Shown: one piece after another, positions 2,983-21,933 of the stretch
How positions within the stretch are numbered: the first letter of the stretch is position 1
How the letters are laid out: every line of letters begins with the position of its first letter
Assembly (NCBI RefSeq): GCF_937138205.1
Contig: NZ_CAKZOT010000113.1
Coordinates: 1 to 64,000 of the forward strand
From: an uncultured Rhodospira sp.
GTDB lineage: Bacteria > Pseudomonadota > Alphaproteobacteria > Rhodospirillales > Rhodospirillaceae
Length of the DNA stretch: 64,000 nucleotides
Direction: 5' to 3'
Made by a program: the position numbers and the translations under genes
The notes under the pieces: model-generated
What the model was told of the DNA's origin: nothing
Database searches by the model: none
Seen by the model: only the letters and a program-made list of their open reading frames with translations

Positions 2983-3229
2983 GGCCGAAACCTCCTGGCG
3001 TGGACGGGTTCGGCTCTGAGACTATACCTGGAGGCGCAAAAGAGTCCGGGTGTAAGTTCGGCGCGCACTCGCCCATTCGGCCTACGGGTTTGATCCGGCG
3101 TCCTTTTTTTTCGGTGCGGCGCGGTGGAAGCTTCTACTGCCCGTGCCGGGAGGCAGTGAACCGCGTAAACCGGGTCCGCCATTGTTCAGACAACGCCAAC
3201 AGGAAAAAAGCAGTCCCGGGTCGCAGTGA

Positions 3230-3255
3230 GACTCATAGTCTGTAGACGGATAGGC
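3230..3255 (+). promoter_or_regulatory. Candidate C-box (controller-protein operator)
   Basis: GACTCATAGTC, spacer TGTA, then GACGGATAGGC, ending 22 bp before the controller gene's ATG at 3278. This matches the two-half-site layout of restriction-modification C-boxes (GACTnATAGTC, GTG-like spacer, a second weaker site). In characterised systems the upstream site activates and the second represses. Position, symmetry and the adjacent XRE gene all agree. Confidence 0.72.
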
Positions 3256-3277
3256 GTCGCCGCGACTTCTATTCCTC

Positions 3278-3511
3278 ATGGAAAGCGAAAACACTCCAGG
3301 TCGCGGAATTGTATCCATAGTCGCCGATAATATTCGAGCGAAGAGGGAGAGTATGGGCTTATCACAGGAAGAGTTGGCTGACCGGGCCGGTTATCACAGG
3401 ACGTATATTAGCTCAATTGAACGAGGGAAAAGAAATATATCGATAGTGACCTTGGAAAAAATATCTATTGCCCTTGGCGTCTCTGTGGTTGTCCTAGTCG
3501 AAAATGAGTAG
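3278..3511 (+). CDS. Restriction-modification controller protein (C protein, XRE family)
   Basis: A 77-residue single-domain helix-turn-helix protein (HTH at about residues 27-53, with SQEELADRAG and YISSIERGKRN). Small XRE proteins of this size overlapping a restriction gene are controller proteins that time endonuclease expression after the methylase. Its stop codon region overlaps the endonuclease start by 8 nt, so the two are probably translationally coupled. A C-box-like operator precedes it. The whole locus is AT-richer than the flanking chromosome, a sign of transfer. Confidence 0.85.
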   Translation: MESENTPGRGIVSIVADNIRAKRESMGLSQEELADRAGYHRTYISSIERGKRNISIVTLEKISIALGVSVVVLVENE

Positions 3512-4262
3512 ATATATGGGAAATGATATTGATGACATTAAGACCCCAAAAGACTCCCTGTCAGAGGAGATGCTATTGCTTTGCAATTCTGTAAAGTCAA
3601 AACGCCCGCGGACCGTCATAGACCACATACTGAAGCACGGCTTCATTACTACGGACGAATTGAATGATACTTATGGCTATGATCATCCGCCCCGCGCAAT
3701 CAGAGATGTAAGAGAAAACGGAATTCCGTTACAAACGCACCGCGTCGTCAGTCCAAAGACTGGACGAAAGATCGCAGCTTATACGTTTGGGGGTGTTGGT
3801 AATATTAGGCGAGGTAGAATTGGCGGTCGCAAAGCATTCTCAAAAAAGTTTAAAAAGCTACTCATTGAAAGGTATGGTGCAAGAGATGCGTTTACAGGAG
3901 AGCCTTTGGAGGAGAGATACTTGCAGATTGATCACAGGATACCATATCCAGTCGCTGGCGAAGAGCATACTGAGAACGTAAACCAGTACATGTTGATTGA
4001 TGCGACATCGCAAAGAGCAAAAAGCTGGTCATGTGAGCACTGTGAGAATTTCCTCTCATTTAGAGGCATAGAAAACTGCAAAAGTTGTTTCTGGGCTTTT
4101 CCGGAAAGCTATACTCATATCGCAATGAAACAGAAGAGGCGGGTTGATGTAGTTTGGGAGGGAAAGGAAACATGCCATTATGACGTTATTCTTGAACGAG
4201 CTAACAAAGAGAATGTCTCTATACAGGAATATATAAAACGCCTAGTTCAAAAGCAAATCTAG
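3504..4262 (+). CDS. HNH-type type II restriction endonuclease
   Basis: A 252-residue protein. Residues about 36-95 form a winged-helix-like domain (TVIDHILKHGFITTDELN). The catalytic HNH/beta-beta-alpha-metal region follows: DAFTGEPL (129-136), QIDHRIPY (141-148, His144 as likely general base), then NQYMLIDATSQRAKSW. Two CxxC pairs (177-180 and 192-195) probably bind structural zinc. The QIDHRIPY motif with nearby CxxC pairs resembles HNH restriction enzymes such as MnlI and Eco31I. It is downstream of the C protein and converges with the methylase, overlapping it by 21 nt. Recognition sequence cannot be deduced. Confidence 0.82.
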   Translation: MSRYMGNDIDDIKTPKDSLSEEMLLLCNSVKSKRPRTVIDHILKHGFITTDELNDTYGYDHPPRAIRDVRENGIPLQTHRVVSPKTGRKIAAYTFGGVGNIRRGRIGGRKAFSKKFKKLLIERYGARDAFTGEPLEERYLQIDHRIPYPVAGEEHTENVNQYMLIDATSQRAKSWSCEHCENFLSFRGIENCKSCFWAFPESYTHIAMKQKRRVDVVWEGKETCHYDVILERANKENVSIQEYIKRLVQKQI

Positions 4263-5171
4263 TTGATCTATCTTTTGTTTTTCTCCTAGAATGACCTTGC
4301 AATCAGAAACGTCAGGGCAAAGGTGTTTCGGAACGTATAGGCTTTCGATGGTCTCCAGTCTTTTGCCGTTTAGCGTTCCCTGTGAAGAGACGCCGGCGGA
4401 GATCAAGAAATGGGACACATCAACCTCCTCGCACAGAGGTGAACCATATTGTTTATCACCGGTGTGGCCATCATATGAAAGAACATATGGAACGTTTCTT
4501 TTGTTCAGCCAACGCAAGCAAGAAACGATGGCGTCTCGTTCAAGCTGCTTTGCGTAACGCTTATCGTGCCCATATGTCGTACCTTGGTATGGTGGGTCCA
4601 TGTAGACGAAATCACTATCCGAACAATCTGCAATACAATCGCGAAAATCACCGCAAAACAAGCTGACGCGTCCTTTTAGGAGACTGCTGGCAAAACTAAT
4701 GTTGGCTCTCATACGGGCAGGCTTCATGCCATGGCGTCTTCTATCTTGAGACTGCGAAAATTGTCCGTGTCTGTTAAAGCGAATTGCGTTCTTGACGCAT
4801 CGGGCAATAAGATAAAGCAAATCAACCGGATCGCCTTCCTCGTTGTAACGAGTGCGAATAGTATTAAAGTGTTCCGCTCCCTTCTCAAATTGCTCATGCC
4901 AGATCATTTCGTATTTGAGAGACGCCTCTTCTGGCTCGAGAATTATTGTTTTCCACAATTTAATAAGAGCGGGACATACGTCACCAATAACGTAATGTTC
5001 AGCCACATCGTGGTATGCTGAGTATAAGGTAACAGCAGCAGAGCCAGCAAAGGGTTCGTAGAAAGTCTCTATTCTACTTGGAAAAAACGAACAAATACGG
5101 GGCGCAAGGATTCGCTTGCTGCCCTGATAAGGAATTGGCTGAAAACGAAGTGGGGACGTGTTGAGTATCAT
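4242..5171 (-). CDS. DNA adenine methyltransferase (MT-D12/Dam family) of the restriction-modification system
   Basis: N6-adenine methylase that would protect host DNA from the adjacent endonuclease. From the ATG at 5171 it has 309 residues: motif X PYQGSKR (14-20), SAM-binding motif I YEPFAGSAAV (38-47), a central target-recognition part, and catalytic motif IV DPPY (192-195). An in-frame TTG at 5207 would add 12 residues; neither start has a convincing Shine-Dalgarno. The gene converges on the endonuclease gene and the two 3' ends overlap by 21 nt. Its low G+C matches the other genes of the system. Confidence 0.88.
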   Translation of the reverse strand: MILNTSPLRFQPIPYQGSKRILAPRICSFFPSRIETFYEPFAGSAAVTLYSAYHDVAEHYVIGDVCPALIKLWKTIILEPEEASLKYEMIWHEQFEKGAEHFNTIRTRYNEEGDPVDLLYLIARCVKNAIRFNRHGQFSQSQDRRRHGMKPARMRANISFASSLLKGRVSLFCGDFRDCIADCSDSDFVYMDPPYQGTTYGHDKRYAKQLERDAIVSCLRWLNKRNVPYVLSYDGHTGDKQYGSPLCEEVDVSHFLISAGVSSQGTLNGKRLETIESLYVPKHLCPDVSDCKVILGEKQKIDQLDLLLN

Positions 5172-5280
5172 AATCAAAATGGTACTGAGAGTCTGCGTCC
5201 GGGACAAGGGAAAAAACCAGCCTCGGCGGGTGACGCACCCACCCGTCGGGCCTGCCCCCCGGCCCTTCGCAATCGTGCCC

Positions 5281-9427: not shown

Positions 9428-10906
9428 ATGCCTGTCGCCGCCACCCCGTCCCCGGCGCCCGCCGCCGTGCGGCCGCCGGTCATCGCCGGCGCCTTCTATG
9501 CCGGCGATCCCGACAGCCTGCGCCGTGACGTCGCGGCGTACCTGGAACAGGGCCGCGCCGCGCGTCCCCCAGGCGCGCCGGTGCCCAAGGTCGTCATCGC
9601 GCCCCACGCCGGCCACGTCTATTCCGGTCCCGTGGCCGCGCGCGCCTATGCTCGGCTGGAGCCGGCACGAGACCGCATCCGCCGCGTGGTGCTGATCGGG
9701 CCATCGCACCGCGTGCCAGTCCAGGGCGTGGCGCTGTCTGGTGCCGATGCCTGGCGGACGCCGCTGGGCGACGTGCCCATTGATCACGCCTGGGCGCGGG
9801 CGCGGCTGGCCGGACTCGCGGACGTCTCCGTCGCCGACCCGCCCCACGCGCAGGAACACTGCCTGGAGGTACATCTGCCGTTCCTGCAGGCGATGCTCGG
9901 CGCGTTCTCGCTGGTGCCGATGGTGGCCGGGCGGGGCGCGCCGGAGCAGGTGGCGCGCGTGCTGGAGGCGCTGTGGGGCGGCCCGGAAACGGCGGTGATC
10001 ATCAGTTCCGACCTCAGCCACTTCCTCGACTACCGGGCCTGCCAGTCCCGGGACGCGACCACCGCCGCCGCCATCGAGTCCCTGGACCCGGGGCGGATCG
10101 GCCCGCACGAGGCGTGCGGCTGCGTTGCCGTCAACGGACTGCTGGCGCTGGCCCGCGCGCGCGGGATCTCGGTCGAGCGGCTGGACATCCGCAACTCCGG
10201 CGATACCGCCGGAGCGCGCGACCGGGTCGTGGGGTACGGCGCCTGGGCGTTTTTCGAGCCGGTGGCGGACGGCGCGGCGGCGGACGACGCCGACCCGATC
10301 GCGGCCACCGAGGCCTTGGTGCGGGACCACGGCGACGCACTGGTGCGGCTGGCGGCGGCCGGCCTGGACCATGGGGTCCGACACGGCACGCCCCCGGGTG
10401 CGGTCGATCTGGCCAAGGTGCCGCCGCCCCTGCGCCTGCCGGGCGCCGCGTTCGTGACCCTGTCCCACATCACCGACGGCGGCCTGCGCGGCTGTATCGG
10501 CTCGGTCGAGGCACACCGCGCCTTGGCGCAGGACGTGCTGACGCACGGCTTCGACGCCGGGTTCCGTGATTCCCGCTTCCCGCCGGTGACCGCCCGGGAG
10601 TTGCCCGGCCTGGGCCTGTCGGTGTCGGTGCTGACGCCGGCCGTGCCGCTGCCGGTCACTGACCGCGATGACCTGTTGGGCAAGATGCGGCCGGGCATTG
10701 ATGGCCTGATCATCGAGGACGCAGGCCGGCGCGGCCTGTTCCTGCCGCAGGTGTGGGAGCAGGTGCCGGAGCCGGCGCGTTTCCTCGGCCATCTCATGCG
10801 CAAGGCCGGCCTGCCGGAGACATACTGGTCGGAGACCGTTCGGGTGCAACGGTTCGAAACCCGGGGGGTGAAGGCGACGCCGTGGGCGCCGAAGGACACG
10901 CCATGA
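9428..10906 (+). CDS. AmmeMemoRadiSam system protein, MEMO (AmrB) and AMMECR1 (AmrA) fused
   Basis: A 492-residue two-domain protein. Residues about 15-275 are the MEMO/AmrB domain, related to metal-dependent dioxygenases (VVIAPHAGHVYSGP, LIGPSHRVP, QEHCLEVHLPFLQ, IISSDLSHFLDY). Residues about 290-485 are AMMECR1/AmrA (SHITDGGLRGCIGS, FRDSRFPPVT, GIDGLIIEDAGRRGLFLPQVW). These proteins usually occur with a radical SAM enzyme, and their reaction is not known to me. Here no such gene is adjacent; the nearest radical SAM gene is 8 kb away. The 3' end overlaps the next gene by ATGA. Confidence 0.9.
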   Translation: MPVAATPSPAPAAVRPPVIAGAFYAGDPDSLRRDVAAYLEQGRAARPPGAPVPKVVIAPHAGHVYSGPVAARAYARLEPARDRIRRVVLIGPSHRVPVQGVALSGADAWRTPLGDVPIDHAWARARLAGLADVSVADPPHAQEHCLEVHLPFLQAMLGAFSLVPMVAGRGAPEQVARVLEALWGGPETAVIISSDLSHFLDYRACQSRDATTAAAIESLDPGRIGPHEACGCVAVNGLLALARARGISVERLDIRNSGDTAGARDRVVGYGAWAFFEPVADGAAADDADPIAATEALVRDHGDALVRLAAAGLDHGVRHGTPPGAVDLAKVPPPLRLPGAAFVTLSHITDGGLRGCIGSVEAHRALAQDVLTHGFDAGFRDSRFPPVTARELPGLGLSVSVLTPAVPLPVTDRDDLLGKMRPGIDGLIIEDAGRRGLFLPQVWEQVPEPARFLGHLMRKAGLPETYWSETVRVQRFETRGVKATPWAPKDTP

Positions 10907-11376
10907 TTCCGGAAGAACGCAGCGGCCCACCGATCTGGAAGGTGATCCTGGGAACCGCCGTGGCGCTTGGCGCCTCGGCGGCGCTGGTCACGTACCTCGA
11001 CAGCATCTCGGTCAAGACCAGCGACCACGACACCGATGGTGGCCCCGTGGTCGATGCCGACGGCTGGACCACCGACCTGCCGGACCAGTTCAAGGGAACA
11101 TGGGTGGCCGATGGCCTCTGCGACAGCGACAGTGCGCCGTTGGTTCTGTTTTCCAACGGCGGCTATCGCTGGCGTGACGGGCCGACCAACTGGGGCTTCG
11201 CGCGCGGCCATTTCAGGTACGACAGTCCCGCCACCCACCGTGTCTTTTTCCGGCTGAGCAAACTGAACAGCCCGCACGACGGCACGGCGGACTACGTCAT
11301 TACCGTGTCGGGGATCGAGTTGAACAAGTACAACCTTAAGGCCGGAACGTCGCAGTCCTACGAAAAATGCGAGTAG
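10903..11376 (+). CDS. Membrane-anchored hypothetical protein
   Basis: A 157-residue protein with one N-terminal transmembrane helix (about residues 12-33, WKVILGTAVALGASAALVTY) and a C-terminal domain probably outside the membrane. The domain pattern FKGTWVADGLCDSDSAPLVL followed by a series of short beta strands suggests a small barrel, lipocalin-like by impression only. It overlaps the preceding gene by ATGA, so the two are likely co-translated. Its last five codons belong to the left copy of a 79-bp direct repeat, so the insertion downstream arrived exactly at its 3' end. Confidence 0.7.
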   Translation: MIPEERSGPPIWKVILGTAVALGASAALVTYLDSISVKTSDHDTDGGPVVDADGWTTDLPDQFKGTWVADGLCDSDSAPLVLFSNGGYRWRDGPTNWGFARGHFRYDSPATHRVFFRLSKLNSPHDGTADYVITVSGIELNKYNLKAGTSQSYEKCE

Positions 11377-11437
11377 TGTGCGGTGGTTGCTCCGACGCTC
11401 TGGATCATCGGTGGCCCAAACGGGGTCGGCAAGACGA
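11359..11437 (+). repeat. Left copy of 79-bp imperfect direct repeat
   Basis: Begins TACGAAAAATGCGAGTAGTG and ends GGTCGGCAAGACGA. The right copy at 12646-12724 differs at 6 of 79 positions by my count. The copy covers the last codons of the membrane-anchored protein and the first codons of a P-loop kinase reading frame. Confidence 0.88.
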
Positions 11438-11475
11438 GCGTGCTACGTGCTCGGCCCGGCGTTGTGATACCTTGA
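11383..11475 (+). pseudogene. Truncated remnant of the zeta-type kinase gene
   Basis: From the GTG at 11383 the frame reads MVAPTLWIIGGPNGVGKTSV and stops at TGA 11473-11475 after 30 residues. The beginning matches the intact kinase at 12670 including Walker A, then the sequence turns AT-rich and unrelated. It is the stump left by, or copied with, the insertion. The rest of the stretch up to 11759 is AT-rich and I see no gene in it. Confidence 0.75.
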
Positions 11476-11759
11476 ATAATGTGTTCATATGTTCGTTTTC
11501 TTGTCTTGCGTTCCCGAAGATTTATTTCCAGCTATCACAATGGTTTTCCCGATATTGCTAGAATATCACTTTGATTATATTGTGGTGGTATGAGATATGA
11601 GTGAAACAAGGGCTTGTTGAGTTGGAGATAGTCGGTAAGGTTGCGACGAGAAGGATGGCTGATTTAAGCTTGACGCGTTCCTGCTCCGTTAGTAGGATTC
11701 GTTAATTATGGCACGAGAGGATTGCTGAAAATAGCAAGAGACAATTTTGGGAGGGTGGT

Positions 11760-12338
11760 GTGGAGTTGTCTGTAAGTAATACACAAGTTACTATTCAGAA
11801 GGGAAATACAATTGAACGGTTTGCTATTGGTCATATTGTTAGAACAAAAAAAATAACGAAGAAGTATGAATATAGAAAAAAAAGCAGAAAGCCTTCTCTG
11901 AAGGCATCAGTGGTGTTTGTTTTGCTTAGTTCGGTTTTATTTTTTGTTATTGAATCTGAGGGCATCGAGAGGGGCTCTTTTGCTCTCGAGTTTCTTGAAT
12001 ATTCTTTGGTTGTTTTGATTGCTTTGGCCGTTCTTTTTTTGATGGATGCGATATTCAACCCAGCCTATAGGCGGAAAAGATTTACTCTGTATTTTGGTCA
12101 GTTTGTATCGGGTGATGGTGGGCAGTACAGCATCGCTTCGCACGGCGAGAGTGTCGTTGACGATTTCTTGGATGCAATATCGAATGCAATGAAAAACGCG
12201 ATATCGAATACTTACAATGTAAACATAGACCGTTCATTGCGCGGCGAAAACATCAACATTGAGAATTTGGTTAGCAAGGACAAGAGCAACATCACTTTCG
12301 TCGAAGGGCAGATCCCGCCTGGAAAAAACGAGTCCTGA
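11760..12338 (+). CDS. Membrane protein of the AT-rich insert, possibly DUF6232-like
   Basis: A 192-residue protein. The N-terminal part (NTQVTIQKGNTIERFAIGHI) resembles the short PH-like strand pattern I associate with DUF6232, which is only a tentative match. Two transmembrane helices follow (about 49-65 and 80-97), then a soluble part with FTLYFGQFVSGDGGQYSIAS and a helix VVDDFLDAISNAMKNAISN. The Asn/Ile-rich tail (about 150-185) contains SKDKSNITFVEGQI, which recurs at the N-terminus of the next protein. The start is GTG 11760 with GGGAGG just upstream. The Shine-Dalgarno of the next gene directly follows its stop. Confidence 0.68.
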   Translation: MELSVSNTQVTIQKGNTIERFAIGHIVRTKKITKKYEYRKKSRKPSLKASVVFVLLSSVLFFVIESEGIERGSFALEFLEYSLVVLIALAVLFLMDAIFNPAYRRKRFTLYFGQFVSGDGGQYSIASHGESVVDDFLDAISNAMKNAISNTYNVNIDRSLRGENINIENLVSKDKSNITFVEGQIPPGKNES

Positions 12339-12351
12339 ACAGGAGGTGGTG

Positions 12352-12606
12352 ATGGTGAATATTAACAGCTTTGAATCTAAAGACCAAAGCACCGTGAATT
12401 TTAATGAGGGAAACATAAACAACATCAATATCGAGCTGTCTGAGCAGTTGGTCGACCAACTGAAAAAACTGGACCGCGATGTTGGGCAGGGCGCTCAGGT
12501 GTCCGAATCTCGCGTCAAAAAGGTTGCGGCTGACATTGTACAGGCCGTCGCAAAAAAGGTCGGGACCGAAAAACTGGCAGCCTACGTTGGGACGTTGTTA
12601 GGCTAA
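12352..12606 (+). CDS. Small partner protein with shared N-terminal motif
   Basis: An 84-residue protein beginning MVNINSFESKDQSTVNFNEG, followed by NINNINIELSEQLVDQLKKL and a helical, Lys/Ala-rich C-terminal half. Residues 5-22 align with residues 168-185 of the upstream membrane protein (8 of 18 identical). A strong AGGAGG sits 5 bp before the ATG. The gene starts 14 bp after the upstream stop, so the two form an operon. I do not recognise the family; the duplicated short Asn-rich motif suggests the two proteins bind each other or the same surface. Confidence 0.68.
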   Translation: MVNINSFESKDQSTVNFNEGNINNINIELSEQLVDQLKKLDRDVGQGAQVSESRVKKVAADIVQAVAKKVGTEKLAAYVGTLLG

Positions 12607-12645
12607 CCCGCTATTCCATCCCGGTTATTTCGGTTGGGTTCCAGA

Positions 12646-12724
12646 TACGAAAAATGCGAGTAAGTTGCGGTGGTTGCTCCGACGCTCTGGATCATCGGTG
12701 GTCCGGACGGGGTCGGCAAGACGA
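12646..12724 (+). repeat. Right copy of 79-bp imperfect direct repeat
   Basis: Begins TACGAAAAATGCGAGTAAGT. It contains the first 55 bases of the intact kinase gene. See the left copy at 11359-11437. Confidence 0.88.
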
Positions 12725-13248
12725 CCTATGCGCTGGCGCATCTGCGCCGCGTCGCCGGCACCATCCATTTGGTCAACGCGGACGAACTGGCGCGGGGTGT
12801 GTCGCCGCTTGATCCGGCGGCGGCGGGGCTGGATGCGGCGCGGCTGGTGTTCCAGCGCGCGCGGCACCACATGGCGCGGGCCGAGACCTTCGCCATCGAG
12901 AGCACCCTGTCCGGACGGACACACCTGCGCCTGATCGCCGAGGCGCGGGCCGCCGGGTTCGTGGTGGCGCTGTTGTACTTCTGGGTGCCGGACAGGGAGG
13001 TCACGTTGGCCCGCATTGCCCGCCGGGTGGCGGAAGGCGGGCACGATGTCGCGCGCGCCGATGTCGAGCGGCGTTGGCCACGCTCCATGGCGGGGTTCGC
13101 GCGTGTGGCGGCGGTCGCCGACCTGTGGCGCCTGTTCGATGCCACGACCCGCCCGTTCGTGGTGGCCGAGGGGAGGGGGACGGCCGTCTCCTTCCTGCGC
13201 GAGGAGGTGCCGGAGCCGTTCCGGAGATTACTGAGCGGGATCCGGTAG
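12670..13248 (+). CDS. Zeta-toxin-like P-loop kinase
   Basis: A 192-residue P-loop NTPase of the zeta toxin/UDP-GlcNAc kinase group. Walker A is GGPDGVGKTT (10-19). Then come VNADELARG (35-43), the substrate-side FAIESTLSGRTHL, and VAEGGHDV with DVERRWPRS, all in family order. Start is GTG 12670, matching the start of the truncated copy at 11383. No antitoxin of the epsilon type is adjacent. Many chromosomal zeta-like kinases of this short type stand alone and their role is unclear. The 3' end overlaps the converging BON gene by 21 nt. Confidence 0.82.
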   Translation: MVAPTLWIIGGPDGVGKTTYALAHLRRVAGTIHLVNADELARGVSPLDPAAAGLDAARLVFQRARHHMARAETFAIESTLSGRTHLRLIAEARAAGFVVALLYFWVPDREVTLARIARRVAEGGHDVARADVERRWPRSMAGFARVAAVADLWRLFDATTRPFVVAEGRGTAVSFLREEVPEPFRRLLSGIR

Positions 13249-21793: not shown

Positions 21794-21834
21794 CAACCCG
21801 GACAATGCGTCCTAAGGACGCATTGTCCGGGTTG
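21794..21834. promoter_or_regulatory. Perfect long palindrome 1 upstream of the AbiE pair
   Basis: A 19-bp arm CAACCCGGACAATGCGTCC, centre TAA, and its exact reverse complement. It has no T-run downstream. It shares the core CGTCCTAAGGACG with the second palindrome at 21891-21933. The whole gap from leuB (21598-21943) contains no gene. Confidence 0.75.
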
Positions 21835-21890: not shown

Positions 21891-21933
21891 ATAGCCATAG
21901 GCATCCGTCCTAAGGACGGATGCCTATGGCTAT
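21891..21933. promoter_or_regulatory. Perfect long palindrome 2 at the AbiE antitoxin start
   Basis: A 20-bp arm ATAGCCATAGGCATCCGTCC, centre TAA, and its exact reverse complement, ending 10 bp before the proposed abiEi ATG. A weak promoter TTGCCA-N17-TAGCCA (21869-21897) overlaps the left arm. AbiEi antitoxins are known to autoregulate by binding paired inverted repeats. Confidence 0.7.

Follow-up and report, generated by a model that had tools for sequence, protein, structure and literature searches.

An AT-rich two-gene insertion between imperfect 79-bp direct repeats at a membrane-gene/kinase junction in an uncultured Rhodospira sp.

The window analysed here comprises the first 64,000 nt of a 170-kb contig (C113) from the 4.0-Mb genome (G000, 118 contigs) of an uncultured Rhodospira sp., and the locus described below lies on its plus strand between a membrane-protein gene and a kinase gene. 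The membrane-anchored protein gene (10903..11376, +; 157 aa, an ORF from the ATG at 10903) stands after a Memo/AMMECR1 gene in the window and in all five congeners, where it was located by tblastn, and its product matched no family in Pfam, PHROG or NCBIfam. The kinase gene (12670..13248, +) is an intact 192-aa ORF, the last 21 bp of which overlap a convergent BON-domain ORF with its stop at 13228. The original prediction described this kinase as zeta-type; it is a P-loop kinase that passes the Pfam cutoff for AAA_33 (PF13671; 44.7 bits, cutoff 27), but Zeta_toxin (PF06414) falls below its curated cutoff (17.8 vs 22.3 bits), and the word zeta is therefore loose. Elsewhere in the genome there is another, distantly related kinase of this type, 30% identical and with an in-frame TAG, on the minus strand (locus L046 of contig C34, ∼3607-4089).

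Two direct copies of a 79-nt block, at 11359..11437 and 12646..12724 (both +), bracket the inserted DNA with 92% identity, and differ at block positions 18, 19, 20, 57, 60 and 61, with a longest identical run of 36 nt. Each block covers the 3′ end of the membrane gene (five codons and the stop), a short spacer, and the first 55 nt of the kinase gene (18.3 codons). The coordinates, the count of six mismatches and the content of the repeats, foreseen as a membrane-gene end plus 18-19 kinase codons, all agree with the original prediction, as does the AT-rich, two-gene segment of about 1.2 kb expected between them. That segment (11438..12645, +) measures 1,208 bp and has a GC content of 0.434 against 0.665 for the window, although its first ∼24 nt are still GC-rich.

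The repeat was the best of six matches listed in a self-search of the window (E 3e-26), and an ungapped plus-strand comparison of the left copy with the window gave 73/79 identities at the right copy and 39/79 at the runner-up. These values rule out a chance repeat. The two copies are the only ones in the 4.0-Mb assembly (141-base query, E ≤ 0.001), and their similarity was not found to extend past the 79-nt edges, as shuffled sequences equalled the observed score in 24-77% of cases when flanks of 24-39 nt were examined in six tests. The six differences fall into two tight groups (P 0.0006 vs random positions). An assembly chimera is unlikely because the copies differ at six positions and share identical runs of at most 36 nt, and because the inserted gene pair recurs in two other genomes.

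At the left block, the kinase reading frame opens only a stub (11383..11475, +) of 30 codons followed by TGA, reading GPNGVGKTSVLRA, while the right copy opens the intact 192-aa ORF, so that the predicted contrast between a truncated left start and a whole right one was borne out. The stub had no Pfam match at E ≤ 0.001, and a degenerate DNA pattern built on it matched the window alone among the six genomes of the genus. Its likeness to the P-loop of ABC-type ATPases was also looked into. Against the PDB it drew 58 sequences at E ≤ 10, the best of them ABC-type; the top match, RNase L inhibitor, had an E-value of 0.0011, but one of 3.4 for its best single stretch. When the right copy and two related kinases were searched as equally long controls, they matched ABC-type proteins as well, in one search with better E-values, so the likeness is one to P-loops in general, and the idea that the stub runs into an ABC-ATPase P-loop was dropped.

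The inserted segment carries two genes, A (11760..12338, +; 192 aa) and B (12352..12606, +; 84 aa), neither of which rose above the cutoff of any Pfam or NCBIfam model. Among 317 genomes searched in the order, A occurs in three, the genome of the window included, and B occurs in the same three. The other two are congeners (G001 and G005, two of the five compared), in which relatives of A and B are adjacent and in the same order at a locus different from that of the window, between an LrgA-family gene and an amidohydrolase (Pfam LrgA and Amidohydro_1 for the flanking genes in G001) that may be read as a dihydroorotase. The 4.3-kb loci around the dihydroorotase-like gene of G000, G002, G003 and G004 hold no A-B pair. 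Direct repeats flanking the pair in G001 and G005 are at most 39 nt long and 64-73% alike, no better than other repeats there. Between these two genomes identity is 45% for A and 29% for B while it reaches 86% for the amidohydrolase, which implies either rapid divergence of the pair or its replacement in situ. This shared locus (L053, 5510-6670; L054, 8100-9170) is a possible replacement site. The A-B pair constitutes an unnamed gene family, found here in one genus only and far more diverged than its locus neighbour.

Searches for A and B farther afield returned little. Plasmids and phages held no match to the A or B of the window or to the A of G001, plasmids held none to the A of G005, and viral contigs held none to A. 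A profile of A run against 385 genomes drawn from the class recovered the window and one weak partial match, in G473 (E 8.7e-4, profile positions 25-105, within a 751-aa frame), which is probably a membrane-helix match and was set aside. Similarities of A to PycTM (E 0.0065) and of B to DpdC (E 0.005), of one A member to Aa_trans (E 0.00058), and of one B member each to CopG_antitoxin (E 0.0014) and Arc (E 0.0039) were all weak and are not taken as assignments. Low-confidence structure models suggest that A has two membrane helices with strands on both sides and a helical C-terminal part, and that B is mostly helical; mean pLDDT was 57.7 for A and 63.1 for B, neither model had a Foldseek match at E ≤ 0.001, and this result was given no weight.

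In the model of A, strands are followed by two membrane helices, further strands and a helix, an order that may resemble that of DUF6232 (PF19744), a family whose layout, in outline, combines strands with two membrane helices. Unlike DUF6232, A would have an extra C-terminal part and has a partner gene, B. Alignment of A with two DUF6232 rows by hhalign covered 106 columns (E 0.00086, probability 24%), a weak match that shrank to 22 columns and a probability of 7.6% with three rows. DUF6232 was not among the seven Pfam families listed for three A members at E ≤ 5, PF19744 had no match in the genome of the window, and no literature on the family was found.

The site was compared across the five congeners (G001-G005) and G000, with one genome per species. 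The closest congener by membrane protein, G002 (77% identical), has the membrane gene, a single copy of the block, and then kinase sequence that continues as it does behind the right copy in the window. Its left flank matches the sequence upstream of the left copy and its right flank that downstream of the right copy, and both A-B and the AT-rich segment as a whole are missing. The original prediction had proposed searching relatives for just such an empty site with one repeat copy, and G002 supplies it; the opposite outcome, in which every relative carries both copies and the same genes and the arrangement is an old fixed duplication, is ruled out by the same genome. With one block copy and no A-B in G002, this is a lineage-specific insertion for which a near relative displays the pre-insertion site, a real but fairly ordinary gene acquisition. 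The membrane-gene/kinase junction accordingly predates the split between G000 and G002, and A-B and the second block copy arose in the lineage of the window.

The kinase of G002 is itself broken, as its block copy is off by one base in length and the gene is cut short into the BON-domain gene, and for this reason the kinase seems dispensable. In the window it retains its start codon and frame after the insertion, although it no longer lies directly behind the membrane gene. Four terminator-like sites were found, none of them in the interval from B to the kinase, so that transcription might read through from A-B into that gene; neither promoter-like nor terminator-like sites were clearly above chance.

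Beyond G002, no kinase follows the membrane gene in G001, G003, G004 or G005 within stretches of 5.0-6.5 kb past the gene. Genome-wide, the kinase had no match at E ≤ 0.001 in G001, G004 or G005, and a single one, located elsewhere, in G003 at the same threshold. The next sizeable ORF, chosen by third-position GC, encodes a thiolase in G003, TANGO2 in G004, DctP in G001 and a ferritin-like protein in G005, and since it differs in each of these four genomes, the DNA around the membrane gene is fluid in general. The further proposal that the boundary marks an accessory-gene exchange site was not supported, since no relative with other cargo between the repeats was found, and the presence of related A-B pairs at another locus without comparable repeats also speaks against it. 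An exchange hotspot at this boundary is thus not established.

As the original prediction had noted, no transposase or integrase is visible at the locus: A and B match no such family, and none of the ten matches to the integrase model PF00589 in the genome lies on the 170-kb contig. Of the 11 inverted pairs detected, none links one end of the insert to the other, and the duplication is 79 bp long; the terminal inverted repeats and short target duplication of an insertion sequence or transposon were not seen. No tRNA or Rfam element lies at the site, the inserted segment had no match in plasmids or phages, and the core of the junction block had no exact match in viral contigs.

A rival idea is that A-B is the remnant of a decayed site-specific integrative element, with an integrase that recognised the 5′ end of the kinase gene and an attachment block that made this end whole again. 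Target genes are often restored by a segment that the integrative element brings along, and the right block copy does restore the kinase start. The proposal nevertheless appears quite improbable when set against the lack of integrase matches on the contig and of a tRNA or Rfam element, the absence of viral, plasmid and phage matches, and the A-B pairs at the other locus, which have no comparable flanking repeats.

The mechanism is most likely ordinary host recombination, and our best explanation, which we hold with about equal measures of confidence and doubt, is that a donor fragment bearing A-B was circularised and entered by a single crossing-over inside the shared junction block. A two-gene accessory module with no recombinase of its own would thereby have been added after the lineage split from G002, at the junction between the genus-conserved membrane-protein gene and the kinase gene. 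The donor fragment would have carried A-B and a copy of only this junction, and once it had become circular, RecA-type single crossing-over within the shared block would have inserted it. The outcome would be a block copy at each end of the insert, a truncated kinase to the left, and to the right a kinase gene that is complete from its start codon. The target segment is indeed single in the empty site of G002 and present as direct copies on both sides of the insert in the window, the pattern expected of crossing-over. The original prediction had offered an integrated circle that recombined with the kinase 5′ end, which fits the anatomy, the step itself being reconstructed. Its second suggestion, that homologous exchange joined related kinase-linked cassettes, lost ground, as the donor arrangement that it requires was not found.

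A tandem duplication of junction, kinase and A-B, followed by loss of most of the left kinase and of one A-B copy, would also yield a left stub and a right whole kinase, and would do so without a circle. It requires A-B to have been linked to the kinase beforehand, together with two deletions, and in G002 the kinase remnant runs directly into the BON-domain gene with no A-B, so that this course of events is very unlikely.

Comparison of the block copies with the empty site gives some indication of their age and origin. Each window copy differs from the G002 block at 18 of 79 positions plus one gap, whereas the two copies differ from each other at only six, which places their common origin later than the split from G002. 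At the positions that G002 can polarise (18, 20, 60 and 61), the outer half of each copy retains the G002 base in four of four cases. A donor block of slightly different sequence, as the source of the inner halves, would produce this, and so would copies that were identical at birth and whose non-functional inner halves then drifted; both predict the pattern, which therefore does not decide between them. Of the three differences that fall within the kinase sequence, two lie in third codon positions, and the remaining one gives GPNG, which is present in all other compared kinases but one. The clustering of the six differences is explained by neither the donor-block nor the drift view.

Drift of the inner halves also figures in another alternative, break and capture, in which opposite-strand nicks 79 bp apart were filled in, so that the block was duplicated, and a stray fragment with A-B became inserted between the copies. 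Such an event would account for the sharp 79-bp edges with no similarity beyond them and would need no linked donor, and later drift of the inner halves would account for which copy has the derived base. It is unlikely, however, given that the differences are clustered rather than scattered and that Ku was found in none of the six genomes of the genus (the control was positive in Bacillus subtilis), so that classical end joining looks unavailable.

The main weakness of single crossing-over concerns the donor. Among the genomes compared, none was found with A-B beside the junction or linked to the block, the pairs of G001 and G005 lying elsewhere, and the donor is therefore hypothetical. There is nonetheless experimental precedent for the route. 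In E. coli, PCR yielded a product indicative of a duplication in 56 of 60 clones that had been selected as candidates for illegitimate events. The 14 that were sequenced had 109-950 bp of the homologous locus duplicated, an outcome ascribed by the authors to RecA-dependent single crossing-over of circularised fragments (PMC3240628). As in that system, foreign DNA lies here between direct duplications of part of a homologous locus with no need for an integrase; at 79 bp, with identical runs of no more than 36 nt and six differences, the shared block is shorter than the 109-950 bp reported there, and the donor is hypothetical (PMC3240628). The E. coli route is described beside homology-facilitated illegitimate recombination, as recircularisation of linear DNA followed by single crossing-over (PMC3240628).

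Homology-facilitated illegitimate recombination has itself been proposed as the means by which Vibrio T6SS gene arrays grow (PMC5361080). The present locus shares with those arrays a new module beside an older gene and remnants of the older gene left behind, and differs from them in two respects: genes of a secretion system were not identified at this site, and the kinase start was duplicated rather than displaced (PMC5361080). A literature search brought up nothing nearer than these two reports.

The locus offers a clean case of a small accessory module set beside a conserved gene with no visible recombinase, the site without the insert being present in a near relative, and the shared block is short enough to raise the question of how little homology suffices. 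In a wider and doubtful reading, A-B would be an uncharacterised membrane module of two fast-diverging genes, possibly with a role in defence or competition. Lacking its own recombinase, it would move from locus to locus within the genus by means of host recombination, using short gene junctions that are shared.

Several other features of the window deserve mention. A second AT-rich stretch at ∼3100-4800 (GC 0.41-0.49 in 500-bp windows) overlaps genes at 3504-5207, namely one for an adenine DNA methyltransferase of the D12 class (PF02086, 108.9 bits) and, convergent to it, one of 252 aa that matches a winged-helix family (PF14090) and by eye resembles an HNH-type endonuclease; the two are likely a restriction-modification pair. 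On the minus strand at 728-1322, a HigB-like toxin gene (PF05015) and a helix-turn-helix antitoxin-like gene (PF01381) likely form a HigBA pair. Finally, two near-perfect palindromes of 41 and 43 nt lie ∼60 bp apart at 21794-21834 and 21891-21933.
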